Assembly (NCBI RefSeq): GCF_001458775.1
Contig: NZ_CZPZ01000012.1
Location: 372,001 to 436,000, forward strand
Reading direction: 5' to 3'
Origin: Candidatus Nitrospira nitrificans
Lineage (GTDB): Bacteria; Nitrospirota; Nitrospiria; Nitrospirales; Nitrospiraceae
DNA: 64,000 nucleotides
Shown here: positions 26,122 to 45,994 of the stretch, in pieces
Position numbering within the stretch: position 1 is the first letter of the stretch
Layout of the letters: the number at the start of each line of letters is the position of its first letter
Made by a program: the position numbers and the translations under genes
Notes under the pieces: generated by a model
The model's input: only the letters and a program-made list of their open reading frames with translations
The model's database searches: none
What the model was told of the DNA's origin: nothing

Positions 26122-26171
26122 TCTTCTCCTCCTCCGTATCTCGTCGTTCATTCCTCCGATCCTGAGTTCCA

Positions 26172-26241
26172 GGTTTCATGTTCGAAGTTTCAAGTTGTGC
26201 AGAATCCAAAACCTCAAACTTGAAACATGAAACCTGAAACC
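26172..26241. repeat. Inverted heptad-repeat element (GTTTCAN/GAAACNT type)
   Basis: The left arm is three heptads of type GGTTTCA (26172-26192) and the right arm four of type AAACATG (26216-26241), separated by about 23 bp. It lies between the VOC and dapF-like genes. It is the same heptad family as the insertion in the receiver domain at 14.4 kb. Confidence 0.7.
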
Positions 26242-26265
26242 GTTGGCCGATACGCTTCACGAGTC

Positions 26266-26673
26266 TCACACGATTGTCTCGCCGGCCGGCCGTTCAATGA
26301 GCTCGATCTCATAACCGTCGGGCGCGTCAATGAAGATGAACCGGCTGCCGGAAGAGGTGGTCGTCGGGCCGTCGGTGATCTTGACCCGCTGCGCATTGAG
26401 CGAAGCGATCGTTTCATCGAGGCTTTCGACTTGAAAAGCCAAATGCACGAGGTCTTCCTGGACCTTCACCGGGCCGCTTGGCGGGAAACTGGTCAGTTCG
26501 ATCAACTCGTCGCTGTTGGGTACCTTCAAGAAGGCGAGGTGTGATCCGCGAGGCGAGGTTTTCCGTTCGATGACCTCAAGGCCCAAGACGGTCGAGTAAA
26601 ACCGGATGGTCTCATCCAAATCGCTGACCCGCATGCGGGTGTGGAGAAACTTTTTGACTCGTAAATTAGTCAT
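26266..26673 (-). CDS. VOC-superfamily protein (glyoxalase I-like)
   Basis: The 135 residues form two beta-alpha-beta-beta-beta modules. The segments HTRMRVSDLDETIRFYSTVLG, HLAF, VHLAFQVESLDETI and the C-terminal DPDGYEIELIE-like DAPDGYEIELIER are typical of lactoylglutathione lyase and related metalloenzymes. Metal ligands H12, E (ELIELTSF), H (VHLAF) and E (YEIELIE) are in place, so glyoxalase I (methylglyoxal detoxification) is plausible, but other VOC functions cannot be excluded. The start codon ATGACT lies inside a heptad repeat and lacks a ribosome-binding site. Confidence 0.8.
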   Translation of the reverse strand: MTNLRVKKFLHTRMRVSDLDETIRFYSTVLGLEVIERKTSPRGSHLAFLKVPNSDELIELTSFPPSGPVKVQEDLVHLAFQVESLDETIASLNAQRVKITDGPTTTSSGSRFIFIDAPDGYEIELIERPAGETIV

Positions 26674-26741
26674 TGATCAATGGTCATTGAACGGCGAATG
26701 CTCTCTCATCATACCAATGACGAGTGACCAATGACTATTGA
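26666..26741. repeat. Inverted heptad-repeat element (TCATTGG type)
   Basis: The left arm is three heptads (26666-26686) holding the start codon of the VOC gene. The right arm is four heptads (26714-26741) holding the stop codon of the acetyltransferase gene. The loop is about 27 bp. Confidence 0.75.
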
Positions 26742-27211
26742 CTGTTTCTTGCCGGTCCTGCCGTTTTGCGCAAGAGCACTTCGGCGCTGCCTGGAATCAA
26801 AAAATTGGGCATGGGGCCGATTTCCAGATAGCCGTGTTTCTTGTAGAAGGCCCTAGCGGACTCGTTAAAGTCCGACACGCAGGCGAAGAGGTTCTTGGTT
26901 CTCTGAAAGACGAGCTCCTCGATGTGCTGCAACAGCCGACCGCCGATTCCCTTCTGACGAGCCCATTCAGCCACGCCTAAGAGCTCCAAATAATCGCCCA
27001 GGAGAAATTTCTGCTTCACGATGGCGACGCCCGCCACTTGTCCATCGAGAAGAGCGACATAACAGTCTCTTCCCTGAGGCGTCGGACAAAAGATGCGGTT
27101 CCAATCGTCCTTCGAGTATCCGAGTCTTCTCCAGGGATCGGACTCACCGAGCAATTGAACGACGGGCTCACGATCGTCCGGCTGTATGTTCCTGATCACC
27201 GGGTCAGTCAT
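26735..27211 (-). CDS. GNAT-family N-acetyltransferase
   Basis: The 158 residues have the GNAT core: strand and helix around IRNIQPDDREPVVQLL, the acetyl-CoA loop in GVAEWARQKGIGGRLLQHIE (R/QxxGxG/A type), and the ESARAFYKKHGYLEIG ending. The substrate is unknown. The start at 27211 overlaps the stop of the deacetylase gene by 8 bp. Its last codons and stop (NSQ, TAG) are made of heptad-repeat sequence. Confidence 0.85.
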   Translation of the reverse strand: MTDPVIRNIQPDDREPVVQLLGESDPWRRLGYSKDDWNRIFCPTPQGRDCYVALLDGQVAGVAIVKQKFLLGDYLELLGVAEWARQKGIGGRLLQHIEELVFQRTKNLFACVSDFNESARAFYKKHGYLEIGPMPNFLIPGSAEVLLRKTAGPARNSQ

Positions 27212-31592: not shown

Positions 31593-33178
31593 TGCGGTCG
31601 GCCCTCCGTCCCGGCCTGCGCTTCTTGACTGAACGTCGGTCCGATTGTCGTGATGGCATGCTCCATCGATGGAGTGAAGGAGGCATCTCGGCGCATGGCT
31701 GAAGCTCGCTCAGCAACCGGGGGGGAGATGCGCGCGATGACTTTCTCAACGCTGGGATGCATGCGGGTCAAGATGGGGTTCGGAAAGATCCCGATCAAAA
31801 AGATCAATGCGACAAGCGGCACCACGGTGATCATCTCACGCAGGTTCACATCGCGAAGTTTCGGGAGCATGTGCGGGTCGGAGACGCCGAAGGCGACACG
31901 TTGAACCATCCAGAGCAAGTAGGCCGCCGCGAGGATGATTCCCAACGAGGCGAGGGCGGCGGCGATTTTGCTCCAGAGGAAGGTGCCTACAAGGATCATA
32001 AACTCCCCGACGAAACTGTTCGTGCCGGGCAGCCCCAATGAAGACAAGGCGAAAATGACCAGGACCGTCGCATACCGCGGCATCGGTTTCGTGAGGCCGA
32101 CATTGTCGGCGATCTGTCGGCTATGGGTGCGTTCGTAAATCATTCCGACGCAGAGAAAGAGTCCACCGGTGGTGATGCCGTGGTTCACCATCTGCATGAC
32201 GGCGCCTTCGATTCCTTGAATATTGAACATGAAGAGGCCGAGAGTCACGAACCCCATATGGCTCACGCTGGAATAGGCGATGAGTTTTTTAAGATCGGCT
32301 TGCGCCAACGCCATATAGGCTCCATAGATGATCGCCGCAATCGAAAGCCCCACGATGAACGGAGTGAACAGCTGTGAGGCATCCGGCAACATGGGAAGGC
32401 TGAAGCGCAGAAACCCATAGGTGCCCATCTTGAGCAGCACGCTGGCGAGGATCACGCTGCCGGCCGTGGGCGCTTCCACGTGCGCATCGGGCAGCCAGGT
32501 ATGGAACGGGAACATAGGGACCTTGACGGCGAAGGCGGCGAAGAACGCGAGGAAGAGCCAGAATTGCAACGATTGGGAATAGGCGCCTTGGCTCAATTGA
32601 AGAATGTCGAACGTATGGCCGCCTTGGAAGTACAAGACCAAGATTGCGACCAGCAGCAAGACGCTGCCGGCGAGGGTATAGAGCAAAAATTTGATCGCGG
32701 CGTAGAGGCGATTGGGTCCGCCCCAGACTCCGATCAGGAGATACATCGGGATCAGCATCGCTTCCCAAAACACATAGAACAGCACGAAATCCAGCGCGCA
32801 GAATACCCCGATCATGGCGCTTTCCATGATCAGCAGCATGGCCATGAAACTTCGAATCCTCTTCTCAATGGAGTACCAGGAAATCAAGATGCAGAGCGGC
32901 ATCAGGACCGTCGTCATGAGGACGAGCGGGAGACTGATTCCGTCGAGGCCGAGCCGGTAGTTGATGGACAGCGCCGGAATCCACCGGGCCGATTCAACGA
33001 ACTGCATCTGACCGGATGACGCATCGAACAGCCACCAGAGCGGGAATGAGATCAGGAGGTCGATCACGGTGACCGTAAGGGCGAGCAGCCGGGTCGAGGT
33101 GTCCTTCACGACAAAGACCGCAGCCGCTCCGGCCAGGGGGATGAAAATCAATAGTGTAAGCCAAGGGAAACTGGTCAT
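31589..33178 (-). CDS. nuoM: NADH-quinone oxidoreductase subunit M
   Basis: NuoM is the second antiporter-like subunit. Its 529 residues show the FYVFWEAMLIPMYLLIG segment with the essential glutamate, the lysine-containing VKVPMFPFHTWLPDAHVEAPT, and LKKLIAYSSVSHMGFV. The start codon ATGACC lies within the heptad-repeat arm at 33173-33200, with no ribosome-binding site. Confidence 0.95.
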   Translation of the reverse strand: MTSFPWLTLLIFIPLAGAAAVFVVKDTSTRLLALTVTVIDLLISFPLWWLFDASSGQMQFVESARWIPALSINYRLGLDGISLPLVLMTTVLMPLCILISWYSIEKRIRSFMAMLLIMESAMIGVFCALDFVLFYVFWEAMLIPMYLLIGVWGGPNRLYAAIKFLLYTLAGSVLLLVAILVLYFQGGHTFDILQLSQGAYSQSLQFWLFLAFFAAFAVKVPMFPFHTWLPDAHVEAPTAGSVILASVLLKMGTYGFLRFSLPMLPDASQLFTPFIVGLSIAAIIYGAYMALAQADLKKLIAYSSVSHMGFVTLGLFMFNIQGIEGAVMQMVNHGITTGGLFLCVGMIYERTHSRQIADNVGLTKPMPRYATVLVIFALSSLGLPGTNSFVGEFMILVGTFLWSKIAAALASLGIILAAAYLLWMVQRVAFGVSDPHMLPKLRDVNLREMITVVPLVALIFLIGIFPNPILTRMHPSVEKVIARISPPVAERASAMRRDASFTPSMEHAITTIGPTFSQEAQAGTEGRPQ

Positions 33179-33262
33179 CGGTCATTGGCCAGTGGTCAAT
33201 CGTCGTTGGAAAGAAGAGCAGGACGACGTGCTCTCCAGTGACCAATGACGAATGACCATTGA
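33173..33262. repeat. Inverted heptad-repeat element in the nuoL-nuoM junction
   Basis: Four GGTCATT-type heptads (33173-33200) and four CCAATGA-type heptads (33235-33262) flank a loop. The loop begins TTGGAAAGAAGA and ends TCTCCA, as does the loop of the nuoJ-nuoK element. This marks the two as copies of one ancestor. Confidence 0.8.
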
Positions 33263-33271
33263 CTCTTCCTT

Positions 33272-35172: not shown

Positions 35173-35263
35173 GTGGTCAACAGTCATTAGTCATTGGTCA
35201 ATAGGTCACTCGGCGAAAATAGGTTGAACCATGTTTCTTCAACAATGACCGTTGACCATTGAC
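35173..35263. repeat. Inverted heptad-repeat element in the nuoK-nuoL junction
   Basis: Five heptads of type TTGGTCA (35173-35207) and three of type CATTGAC (35243-35263) are separated by a 35-bp loop. The element fills nearly the whole gap between the genes. Confidence 0.75.
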
Positions 35264-35268
35264 TTTTT

Positions 35269-35574
35269 CTACCATTTGAGCAGGTTGAACTCTTCGACAT
35301 TGATGGTCGATCTCGATCGGTGCAGGGCGATGATGATCGCGAGGCCGACGGCGACCTCGGCGGCGGCGACCGTCAAGGCAAAAAAGACAAACACTTGACC
35401 GCCGAGATCCTGCAGATGATCGGAGAATGCGACGAAGTTGATGTTGGTCGCGTTCAGCATCAGTTCCACGGACAGCAGAATGGCGATGATATTGCGCCGG
35501 ATCAACACGCCCACGACGCCTGTCAGGAAGACGATGGCGCTCAAGATGAGGTAATAGGAAATCGGAATAGTCAT
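35269..35574 (-). CDS. nuoK: NADH-quinone oxidoreductase subunit K
   Basis: The 101 residues form three transmembrane helices with the conserved buried glutamates in [14 protein letters not shown] and in [12 protein letters not shown]. It is a small membrane-arm subunit in the proton path. The ATG at 35574 lies within a heptad arm and no ribosome-binding site is seen. Confidence 0.95.
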
Positions 35575-35653
35575 CGGTCACCAGTCATTTGTCATTGGAA
35601 AGAAGAATGAGGCAGCACGGTCTCCACTGACCATTGACTATTGACCATTGACT
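35570..35653. repeat. Inverted heptad-repeat element in the nuoJ-nuoK junction
   Basis: The left arm (35570-35597) is four heptads and includes the nuoK start. The right arm (35626-35653) is four heptads and encodes the last codons and TAG of nuoJ. The loop begins GGAAAGAAGA and ends TCTCCA, like the element at 33.2 kb. Confidence 0.8.
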
Positions 35654-36180
35654 CCTCCTGCTTCGCCCTCGCCGATGTCGCGTTTGGCGAGGACGATGGC
35701 GCCGATCATTGCCACAAGGAGCACCAAGGAGGCCACCTCGAACGGGAACAAATAGGTTGAAAAAAGCGTCTTGCCGATGGCCAAGGTATTGTCGATGGCG
35801 AGGGCATCATGCGGCTCCGACTGGAGCGACGGACTCCCGGTGATGACGGCGCCGGCTCCGCCGGAGAGCAGCAAGACGGACTCAATGAGCAACGGCACGC
35901 AGACAATCCCTGCGATCCGCCATTGGCTGTGGTACCGGTCGTCTTGCGTGACATTGAGCAACATGACGACGAACAGATACAGCACGAGAATGGCCCCGGC
36001 ATAGACGATAATCTGCACGGCCGCGAGAAATTCGGCATGAAGCGTGATGAAGAGTCCCGCGACATGGAAAAACATGACCAAGAGCGACAGCGCGCTGTAA
36101 ACGGGATTTCTCAATGCCACCACCAGAATAGAAGTGACGGCGATCATCCCGGCGAAGTATCCAAAAAACAGCTGTGACAT
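35638..36180 (-). CDS. nuoJ: NADH-quinone oxidoreductase subunit J
   Basis: The 180 residues have five transmembrane helices, with the conserved AVQIIVYAGAILVLYLFVVMLLN segment (pi-bulge helix TM3). The last codons (VNGQ and TAG) lie in the heptad arm at 35626-35653, so the native C-terminus was probably altered by the element. The start follows AGGA a few bases upstream. Confidence 0.93.
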   Translation of the reverse strand: MSQLFFGYFAGMIAVTSILVVALRNPVYSALSLLVMFFHVAGLFITLHAEFLAAVQIIVYAGAILVLYLFVVMLLNVTQDDRYHSQWRIAGIVCVPLLIESVLLLSGGAGAVITGSPSLQSEPHDALAIDNTLAIGKTLFSTYLFPFEVASLVLLVAMIGAIVLAKRDIGEGEAGGVNGQ

Positions 36181-40640: not shown

Positions 40641-40653
40641 GCTCTCCAGTATT

Positions 40654-40706
40654 CGTTAAACGTTAACCGTTAAACATGATTCTTGCGAATAACGATTCAC
40701 GATTAA
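40654..40706. repeat. Inverted heptad-repeat element (CGTTAAN type) in the nuoF-nuoG junction
   Basis: There are three CGTTAAA/C heptads (40654-40674) and three CGATTAA-type heptads (40686-40706). The 11-bp loop ends GATTCTTG, also found in the nuoE-nuoCD element. The right arm contains the nuoF stop codon. Confidence 0.75.
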
Positions 40707-42010
40707 CGTCTTATTCCCACTTGCCCCGGCATGATCAAATTCGCCGCTTCTGCTTCATTGATGAGGTCGACGTATTCCTGCCGCCAATGCTTCAGCGTGC
40801 TCTGGATCGGCGCGACTTCCGCGTCGCCGAAGGCACAGACGGTGCGGCCTGCGATGTTTTTGCATAGATCCAACAAGGTTTCAAGGTCCTCCATCCGACC
40901 TCGCTTCGCCAAAATTCGACGGAGTGTCTGGACGAGCCAGGAACTGCCTTCTCGGCAAGGGCTGCATTTCCCGCAGGACTCATGGTAGAAAAATTCCATG
41001 AGCCGAAGCGCGGCCCAGACCATGCTGGTGCCCTCTTCCATGACCGTCACGCCCCCTGATCCCAACATCGATCCCGCCGCCGCCACGTGCTCGAAATCCA
41101 GTTTTACGTCGAGATGGGCCGGCGTCAGAAAAGGCGCCGATGCTCCACCTGGAATAAAGGCCTTCATCGGCTTGTCGGATCGCATGCCGCCAGCGTACTC
41201 ATACACCAATTCGCGGACCGTCATTCCCATCGGAACTTCATAGTTGCCCGGTCGTTTCACATGCCCGCTGACGCAGAAGACCCTGGTGCCGGTGCTCTTC
41301 GGCGGCGAACCGATCGCCGCAAACCATTCGGGGCCTCGGGTAACGATGTGGGGGAGGTTCGCCAGCGTCTCGACGTTATTGACCACGGTCGGCTTATTAT
41401 AGAGCCCATGCGTGGCTGGAAACGGCGGCTTGATGCGGGGGAGTCCGCGTTTGCCTTCGAGTGATTCCAGGAGGGCCGTTTCCTCGCCGCAGATATAGGC
41501 GCCCGCTCCCCGATGCACCCACACGTCCGCGTTGATGCCTGTGCCGAGGATGTTCTTTCCGATATATCCGGCGGCTCTCGCTTCGCCGATGGCCTGTTCC
41601 AAGATCTTTGAGCCCAAGACCATTTCCCCGCGGATATAGATGTAGGCGGATTCCGCGCCGATGGCATAGCAGGCCAATACGATGCCTTCCAATACTTGAT
41701 GAGGGTCCCGCTCCATGAGTTGACGATCCTTGAACGTACCGGGCTCGCTCTCGTCGGCGTTGCAGCACAGATATCGGGGGCCGTGATAGTCTTTCGGTAG
41801 AAATCCCCATTTCACGCCGGTCGGGAAGCCTGCGCCGCCTCGGCCGCGCAGACCCGATTTTCGGACGATCGTCGTCACGTCTGCCGGGGTGATTTTCCCG
41901 AGCGTGTTGCGCAAGGCTTGATAGCCTCCGGTCTTCTCATAGTCAGACAGCGACCCGGTATAGCCGGGTTGCGACATATTTTTGAGCAGGATCAGTTCGT
42001 GTTTCGCCAT
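40703..42010 (-). CDS. nuoF: NADH-quinone oxidoreductase subunit F
   Basis: NuoF binds NADH, FMN and the [4Fe-4S] cluster N3. The 435 residues hold the glycine-rich GLRGRGGAGFPTGVKWG (NADH/FMN), ICGEETALLESLEGKRG and the cluster ligands ESCGKCSPCREG with a distant C in IAGRTVCAFG. It lies between nuoG and a decayed four-helix-bundle gene that separates it from nuoE. Confidence 0.95.
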   Translation of the reverse strand: MAKHELILLKNMSQPGYTGSLSDYEKTGGYQALRNTLGKITPADVTTIVRKSGLRGRGGAGFPTGVKWGFLPKDYHGPRYLCCNADESEPGTFKDRQLMERDPHQVLEGIVLACYAIGAESAYIYIRGEMVLGSKILEQAIGEARAAGYIGKNILGTGINADVWVHRGAGAYICGEETALLESLEGKRGLPRIKPPFPATHGLYNKPTVVNNVETLANLPHIVTRGPEWFAAIGSPPKSTGTRVFCVSGHVKRPGNYEVPMGMTVRELVYEYAGGMRSDKPMKAFIPGGASAPFLTPAHLDVKLDFEHVAAAGSMLGSGGVTVMEEGTSMVWAALRLMEFFYHESCGKCSPCREGSSWLVQTLRRILAKRGRMEDLETLLDLCKNIAGRTVCAFGDAEVAPIQSTLKHWRQEYVDLINEAEAANLIMPGQVGIRR

Positions 42011-42013
42011 ATG

Positions 42014-42478
42014 CGTTAATCGTTAACCGTCAATCGCCAGAAGCTGACTTTGACTTCGCAGACTTAAGATACCTGATAAAACCGTTCACGATGGTAATGG
42101 CTCTCAAGATGTCGCCTCGAATCCGATCAAAGCTTTCTTCTTCAATAATCTTCTCATCTTTGCATGCGATTAAATGATCTAGAATTTCATACAATGATCC
42201 ACGGGCCTGCCTTGCAAACTGAGCATTTTCTGAGTAATGGAAGCCACCATATCCTTCTGCCAAGTTGGCAGTTACGGAACGAGAAGCACGAATGAGTTGA
42301 TCAGTCAGCCGATTTTTTCATCCTTTGGAAAAGTTTCAGCCAAATTCGAAAGTCTGATACATAACTCCCGACAAACCTTCCAGACATCAAGACCTTCAAA
42401 GGTTCGAACGGTTATGGTTTATCTTTTGACGTATGTAGTCCCTCGTTTAACGAATAACGATTAACGTTCAACGTTCAC
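42014..42478. repeat. Composite heptad-repeat element carrying a four-helix-bundle gene
   Basis: The left arm (42014-42034) is three CGTTAAC-type heptads. The right arm (42444-42478) is five heptads of type CGATTAA/CGTTCAA. The arms are in inverted orientation. The about 410 bp between them is a decayed four-helix-bundle gene whose stop codon is inside the left arm. The right arm encodes the last residues and stop of nuoE. The whole interrupts the nuo operon between nuoE and nuoF. Confidence 0.75.
42030..42415 (-). pseudogene. Four-helix-bundle (23S rRNA IVS-type, TIGR02436) gene, frameshifted and without start codon
   Basis: The N-terminal frame reads TVRTFEGLDVWKVCREL, LSNLAETFPKDEKIG and then hits a stop. 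One base over it resumes as LTDQLIRASRSVTANLAEGYGG and continues to NGFIRYLKSAKS at 42030. A single missing C near 42308 (GGCTG instead of GGCCTG) joins the halves into a normal protein of about 128 residues. The codon where ATG is expected is ATA (42413-42415), with an in-frame stop just upstream. These two lesions make expression of an intact product unlikely. This protein family occurs in intervening sequences of 23S rRNA. The remnant lies between inverted heptad arms. The downstream 77-codon frame from 42263 could still be translated. Confidence 0.7.
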
Positions 42479-42991
42479 CGGCAAGGGCCACATAAACGGA
42501 CCGCTCTTCAGCCGGCTGGTTCCGGTCGAGCGCAGATCGGCCAAAATGCGGTCCAGTTTGTCCTCGGTCAGTTGCTCGTAATAGTCCTCGTTGATCTGCA
42601 TCATGGGCCCGGTCCCGCACGCGGCCAAACATTCCACCGCGGTGAGGCTGAACAGTCCGTCCGCCGTCGATTCACCCGGGGCGATCCCCAGCTTCGCCTT
42701 GATCCATTCGATCACCGTATCCGATCCGACCAGGGCGCACATGAGGGATTTGCACACCTGAATGTGGAATTTGCCCACCGGCTTCAGGTTGAACATCGTG
42801 TAAAAGGTGATCGTTTCATAGACCTGCGGAGGCGTCAGCCTGAGCAGATGCGCGATCTCTTGCATGGCCGATTCGGTCACATAGCCCTGGTCACGCTGCG
42901 CGACATAGAGGAGTGGGATCAACGCGGAGCGCTTGACCGGATAGCGCGATAAGATCTCGGCTATTTCGTCCTTATATTTGTCTTGCAACAC
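42461..42991 (-). CDS. nuoE: NADH-quinone oxidoreductase subunit E
   Basis: NuoE carries the [2Fe-2S] cluster N1a. The 176 residues show VCKSLMCALVGSD (first cysteine pair) and ECLAACGTGPMMQINEDYYEQLT (second pair). The start is GTG at 42991. The last codons (VNVER, TAA) are written in the heptad arm at 42444-42478, so the C-terminus probably changed when the element arrived. Confidence 0.94.
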   Translation of the reverse strand: MLQDKYKDEIAEILSRYPVKRSALIPLLYVAQRDQGYVTESAMQEIAHLLRLTPPQVYETITFYTMFNLKPVGKFHIQVCKSLMCALVGSDTVIEWIKAKLGIAPGESTADGLFSLTAVECLAACGTGPMMQINEDYYEQLTEDKLDRILADLRSTGTSRLKSGPFMWPLPVNVER

Positions 42992-43009: not shown

Positions 43010-43083
43010 CGTTATTCGTTAAAAGTTAATCGCCGGAATGTAGTCGATTCTTGCGTTTAACGAATAACGATTCACGTGTAACG
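43010..43083. repeat. Inverted heptad-repeat element (CGTTAAN type) in the nuoCD-nuoE junction
   Basis: There are three heptads (43010-43030) and four in the complementary arm (43054-43081). The 23-bp loop ends CGATTCTTG, shared with the element at 40.7 kb. Confidence 0.75.
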
Positions 43084-45408: not shown

Positions 45409-45491
45409 CGTTATTCGTTACACGTTAACCGACAGGGCATTCATCGTGGTTGTGCGGATCTTGCGTTTAACGATTCACGAATATCGTTTAA
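45409..45491. repeat. Inverted heptad-repeat element (CGTTAAN type) in the nuoA-nuoB junction
   Basis: There are three heptads (45409-45429) and four complementary heptads (45464-45491). The loop ends GGATCTTG, close to the loop ends at 40.7 and 43.0 kb. Confidence 0.75.
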
Positions 45492-45499
45492 CGTATTTA

Positions 45500-45871: not shown

Positions 45872-45879
45872 GGGAACTC

Positions 45880-45994
45880 CGTGAAGCGTGAAGCGTGAAG
45901 CGTGAAGCGTGAAACCCGCTTCGTCCGCCTTGGGCGAGACTTCGCCCGCAAAGCCCGCATCGACGAGTCTGGGAGGCGAGCGTGAAACGTGAAA
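45880..45994. repeat. Direct heptad-repeat array (CGTGAAG type)
   Basis: Five consecutive CGTGAAG/A heptads (45880-45914) and two CGTGAAA heptads (45981-45994) lie in the same orientation. A GC-rich segment with a small hairpin (GGGCGA / TCGCCC) lies between. It occupies the nuoA leader region. Unlike most elements here the arrays are direct, not inverted. Confidence 0.75.

Follow-up and report, generated by a model that had tools for sequence, protein, structure and literature searches.

The 0.47-kb segment between the minus-strand genes nuoE and nuoF of Candidatus Nitrospira nitrificans (contig NZ_CZPZ01000012.1, 4.1-Mb genome) is best read as one copy, now decayed, of a small mobile element. 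Inverted arrays of a 7-bp unit enclose a gene for an S23 four-helix-bundle protein, and S23 genes throughout prokaryotes and phages generally share this plan of mirrored heptad arms. The segment was studied within a 64,000-nt stretch of the contig, here called the window, and coordinates count from the first letter of that stretch. The arms of the element are inverted runs of CGTTAAN-type heptads (42014-42036 and 42444-42466), 83% complementary over 23 nt and separated by 407 nt, with the heptad run of the second arm extending to about 42482. The element and its host genes comprise the following features:

42014-42036, plus strand: heptad arm 3' of the S23 gene; holds the gene's stop codon TGA (42030-42032); 3 nt separate its end from the nuoF start codon (42008-42010)
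42444-42482, minus strand: heptad arm 5' of the S23 gene, reading inward on the minus strand CGTTGAA CGTTAAT CGTTATT CGTTAAA; holds the nuoE stop codon (42461-42463)
42030-42415, minus strand: S23/PF05635/TIGR02436 pseudogene, with ATA at the expected start (42413-42415), a base missing near 42310-42325 and the C-terminal frame at 42030-42263
42461-42991, minus strand: nuoE, the upstream host gene, whose C-terminus and stop codon extend into the arm
40703-42010, minus strand: nuoF, the downstream host gene, which starts directly after the element

The C-terminal open reading frame alone scored above the curated cut-offs of both families (37.5 bits against a cut-off of 33.8 for PF05635, and 40.3 bits against 24 for TIGR02436), and after read-through of the frameshift the scores rose to 93.5 and 91 bits (E-values of 1e-26 and 5e-26). 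An earlier note on this DNA had described heptad arms around a TIGR02436-type gene, and had read that gene as decayed, with an ATA start, one missing base and its stop codon in one arm. Both descriptions hold, the first far more generally than was proposed. Aligned with the 75% identical element of the congener G020, the window copy is one base short. ATA occupies the expected start position in both copies, so the loss of the start codon predates the frameshift, and the two lesions together make the window gene a pseudogene. The window element displays the class plan: a 7-bp array flanks the gene on each side, mirrored between the two, and both arms use one heptad. CGTTAAN-type repeats are also abundant beyond the element: two-unit matches numbered 61 in the window versus 23.9 +/- 5.7 in shuffled sequences, and three-unit matches numbered 135 in the genome versus 1 for a reversed control pattern. 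An Rfam search of the 25-47 kb portion of the window matched no family, and PADLOC returned no defence-system match.

The association is not a peculiarity of this operon. S23 genes above the family cut-off are carried by 58 of 79 congener genomes, and they are flanked almost everywhere by mirrored heptad arrays, the heptad itself differing from locus to locus. Flanks were scored by lag self-similarity, a motif-free measure that assumes no heptad. Lag 7/14 self-similarity in the two S23 flanks of the genus was 13.9/14.6, as compared to about 9-10 elsewhere; lags 7 and 14 alone were raised, and the signal was absent within the gene and 500 bp away. To quantify mirroring, the upstream flank was matched with the reversed downstream flank, and the null was provided by a partner flank taken from another locus. 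The mean arm match in the genus was 16.4 versus 8.8 for the null, and 58 of 69 S23 genes exceeded the 95th percentile of the null. When the 69 loci were grouped into 19 sites, 17 of these had a copy above the same threshold. S23 genes lacking heptad flanks, which the earlier note had named as the observation that would refute a link, did not prevail and the link was not refuted: they are the minority in the genus and also across phyla, where 70 of 79 loci exceeded the 95th percentile of the null (mean arm match 19.3 versus 8.5) and lag-7 scores in the two flanks were 14.7/15.4 versus about 10. Arms were present in Bacteroidota, Clostridia, Planctomycetes, Chloroflexi, candidate phyla and Methanophagales archaea. 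At 39 loci on viral contigs the heptad signal was equally strong, with lag-7 flank scores of 16.4/15.8. One pair of loci (L169 and L216), in a Methanophagales archaeon and a Nitrospirota bacterium, encodes S23 proteins that are 69% identical and uses the identical heptad GGAATAG, an apparent cross-domain transfer of the element.

Several lines of evidence show that arms and gene travel as one unit and that the protein is under selection. Median arm length is 31 nt, or about 4-5 heptads, with some 36-45 nt between arm and domain end. At both ends, the inward-reading strand of the arm is G-rich and C-poor (G 0.36, C 0.12). Heptads are closely related between the two arms of one locus (distance 1.15) and divergent between loci (3.27). 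Where S23 proteins at different sites are at least 70% identical, their heptads agree within one mismatch in 60% of cases versus a background of about 2%, and below about 60% protein identity the heptad flavour is uncorrelated with the protein. Among unlinked viral copies of one family, homology spans one arm, a leader with a TATAAT-like box, the gene and the other arm, and stops outside. The gene evolves under purifying selection, with a median dN/dS of 0.098.

Gene-less heptad elements are far more numerous in this genome than gene-bearing ones. In 464 kb sampled, we counted 22 arrays with lag 7, compared with 0-6 for other lags; the majority of the 22 form mirrored pairs that enclose no gene. 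The window contains the following gene-less elements:

40647-40708: CGTTAAN inverted element between nuoF and nuoG
43010-43083: CGTTAAN inverted element between nuoD and nuoE
45409-45493: CGTTAAN-type inverted element between nuoA and nuoB
35175-35265: GTCATTG-flavour element on one side of nuoK
35577-35656: GTCATTG-flavour element on the other side of nuoK
33163-33267: GTCATTG-flavour inverted element adjoining nuoL
26166-26244: GTTTCAN-flavour inverted element
26667-26746: GTCATTG-flavour inverted element

A seeming second gene-sized gap between arms (35175-35656) was discarded, as it is nuoK lying between two gene-less elements. Upstream of nuoA, a perfect direct array of five CGTGAAG heptads (45874-45920) has no clear mirrored partner. 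Across genomes, gene-less arrays track S23 number. In the sampled stretches, S23-rich genomes had 26 arrays per 400 kb and S23-lacking relatives 2 per 360 kb, a third match in the latter being dismissed as a run of N, and the density of one flavour correlated with the number of S23 genes in the 79 genomes (rho 0.63, p about 7e-10, uncorrected for phylogeny). Two S23-bearing genomes, G001 and G012, had no gene-less arrays in the stretches sampled, and the agreement of gene-less flavours with the S23 arms of the same genome was a trend that did not reach significance (14/120 permutations). The proposal of the earlier note that small elements are derivatives of gene-bearing ones is borne out in part: gene-less derivatives exist, as illustrated by an internal-deletion remnant at the nuoE/nuoF site of the congener G066, and array density behaves accordingly, but most small elements contain no remnant of a gene.

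Occupancy of individual junctions varies between related genomes. At the nuoC/nuoD junction of Mesorhizobium, an S23 element is present in 8 of 30 species and a short intact junction in the other 22 (15 counted automatically, 7 by eye). No direct target-site duplication was visible at these insertions. In the AGTGAGT-type Mesorhizobium copies (L423-L452), the host 7-mer GGCGAAG adjoins the 5' arm and occurs again, in inverted orientation, immediately beyond the 3' arm; these copies trace to a single ancestral insertion. One and the same phage junction may be empty, gene-less, or occupied by unrelated S23 elements with other heptads. At nuoE/nuoF, a gene-bearing element is found in the genome studied here (G000) and in G020, a remnant with both arms intact in G066 and a single arm in G030 and G052, while in other congeners the junction is occupied by gene-less elements of different flavour or is almost bare. 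The nuoD/nuoE junction varies between species in a similar manner. We do not regard the nuo sites of the genus as clean empty sites, as several of the 'empty' ones are deletion scars. In five congeners (G053, G051, G054, G057 and G068; loci L114, L115, L125, L126 and L131), the nuoD/nuoE junction holds a non-heptad hairpin family, GCCAGGATGTTCC ... GGAACATCCTGGC, in the place taken by heptad elements in other species.

No recent transposition within a genome was caught. A near-identical pair of S23 genes in genome G091, considered as a candidate, was rejected, since two related CRISPR arrays carry the same inserted element. In this pair (L294 and L295, at about 1520320 and 1736797 of G091:C1), the S23 element sits at one end of the array, adjoining the CRISPR repeats. 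On two viral contigs that are 99.6% identical (L282 and L284), the whole S23 element is tandemly duplicated in one relative to the other with one CAACGTT arm in common, reflecting either recombination between arms or an assembly effect. An empty site for L284 was not found, only two contigs carrying L284 having turned up.

The closest known relative of the element is the 23S rRNA intervening sequence (IVS) with an S23p open reading frame, as described for Coxiella and Leptospira, and the parallel drawn by the earlier note is a real one. Both encode the same protein family, place the gene in the loop of a terminal inverted repeat, have tandem heptamers upstream of the gene and a decaying reading frame, and are sporadically distributed. 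The Coxiella IVS carries tandem GACAGAT heptamers upstream of the S23 start, in strain-dependent copy number, as well as a 28-bp terminal stem, and its mobility has been suggested before (PMC4990558). In contrast, known IVSs reside in rRNA and are cut out by RNase III, whereas the present elements lie between protein genes, in phages and in a CRISPR locus; none of the S23 loci checked for a location inside 23S rRNA showed a 23S motif. Strictly speaking, the window element is no IVS, because it lies between nuoE and nuoF and not in rRNA. Heptads had been noted at one IVS locus without generalisation, and in open-licence papers we found no general link between heptads and S23. The S23-bearing heptad element shares the IVS plan outside rRNA.

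Other repeat systems are related more loosely. REP/REPIN sequences with their RAYT (Y1) transposases similarly combine few gene-bearing copies with many small, palindromic, gene-less intergenic copies, yet the present element has no Y1 transposase, encodes S23 alone, and ends in heptad arrays rather than REP hairpins. Y1_Tnp (PF01797) showed no association, being found in 15/20 S23-rich and 13/20 S23-lacking genomes. Diversity-generating retroelements (DGRs) encode a homologous four-helix-bundle protein, Avd (PHROG 3206), while the present element has neither reverse transcriptase nor template/variable repeats. Heptamer direct repeats have been described in Beggiatoaceae (TAACTGA) and Geobacter (MTYCTGA and GGGACCG) (PMC4679880, PMC2700814). 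Compared by description only, they likewise form intergenic runs of a 7-bp unit that are abundant per genome, but the papers present them chiefly as direct repeats or candidate regulatory sites and draw no connection to S23 genes.

Taken together, the S23 element is probably a selfish mobile element of fixed plan, whose pentameric protein putatively recognises the heptads and helps to copy or insert the element with host enzymes. The plan begins with about 4-5 heptads in an inward-reading array that is G-rich and C-poor, continues with a short leader and the S23 four-helix-bundle gene, which runs in the direction of the host operon, and closes with the same array inverted. S23 proteins have been described as homopentamers (PMC4990558), PDB entries 2gsc and 2rld contain five chains each, and the PHROG 3206 match is annotated 'Avd protein of DGR'; a catalytic domain was not found in the protein. 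The Avd-related homopentamer would recognise the heptads, perhaps one per subunit, and would assist in copying or inserting its own element as well as gene-less relatives via host replication or recombination enzymes. Sense-orientation junctions between operon genes may be the places that tolerate insertion, and the S23-bearing intervening sequence of 23S rRNA would be the same element after landing in rRNA. More tentatively, we consider it possible that these elements form a domain-wide class without a known transposase, in which the arrays at the two ends, with a heptad particular to each locus, are read by a pentameric four-helix-bundle protein that moves the element and its gene-less derivatives with host enzymes, the classic S23-bearing 23S IVS being one landing site. 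PF05635/TIGR02436 is a very common family without known function, and the heptad arms give a first clue to its role. With mirrored, locus-specific arrays around nearly all sampled members, the family gains a cis-acting partner, and the function and mobility of S23 become testable by binding and movement. Where S23-bearing 23S intervening sequences come from has been a question ever since their first description, and the S23 elements are also a likely source of the heptad hairpins found in the intergenic gaps of many genomes.

The same architecture could instead act at the RNA level, as in the 23S IVS: the arms would pair in the operon mRNA, RNase III would cut the hairpin, and S23 would bind or protect the stem, adjusting expression of neighbouring genes. 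An RNA-processing role is possible because S23 genes are sense-oriented in operons, being co-directional with both neighbours at 118 loci and opposite to both at only 8. The published RNase III precedent in IVSs points in the same direction, and so does the finding that, in orthologues at one site, the two arms of a copy match each other more closely than arms combined from different copies (126 pairs versus 30). The predicted fold of the window element, at -135 kcal/mol, is more stable than that of shuffled sequences (-124 kcal/mol), but the z score is only -1.86. Moreover, arm mismatches are not biased toward G-U pairs in the sense transcript (167, versus 180 in the antisense), and spread of the cassette to phages, archaea and unrelated junctions would be left unexplained. 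We therefore consider an RNA-level function unlikely, and removal of the segment from nuo mRNA, which the earlier note had raised, found no support in either the strand symmetry of the mismatches or the fold. Copying through RNA, with S23 acting as an Avd relative together with a reverse transcriptase supplied in trans, would agree with the DGR annotation and the sense orientation, yet it appears very improbable, given that reverse transcriptase (PF00078) is no more frequent in S23-rich (3/20) than in S23-lacking genomes (4/20).

Alternatively, the heptad hairpins might be REP-type host repeats that exist independently of S23, the genes hitchhiking on them or inserting into them. The excess of gene-less elements in this genome would fit such a scenario, as would the CGTKAAN arrays that persist in some S23-lacking congeners (e.g. 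G075 and G011). However, arms follow the protein from site to site and homology stops at them, S23 arms with locus-specific heptads occur in all phyla sampled, and array density follows S23 number, which makes independent host repeats a decidedly weak candidate. Finally, as heptad hairpins are common in the nuo operon, a single case could be coincidence, one gene happening to fall between two of many hairpins. The association, however, recurs in nearly all congener S23 loci, in about 80 cross-phylum loci and in 39 viral loci, and the lag-7 signal and the mirrored-arm tests, in the genus and across phyla, rule out a chance association, leaving such an artefact a negligible prospect. The mobile-element reading is the one that we favour.

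At a minority of S23 loci, the period of the flanking arrays is 8 rather than 7. At one locus of G091 (L296, 2440-3850), GGTGAAGG-type octamer arrays flank the S23 gene, and such octamers also form in-frame runs within the gene of an ArsA-like ATPase, at two places: close to its start and at the junction of its halves. Cyanobacteria are known for heptanucleotide STRR repeats, and S23 genes are frequent on the plasmids of Nostoc, Calothrix and other cyanobacteria.
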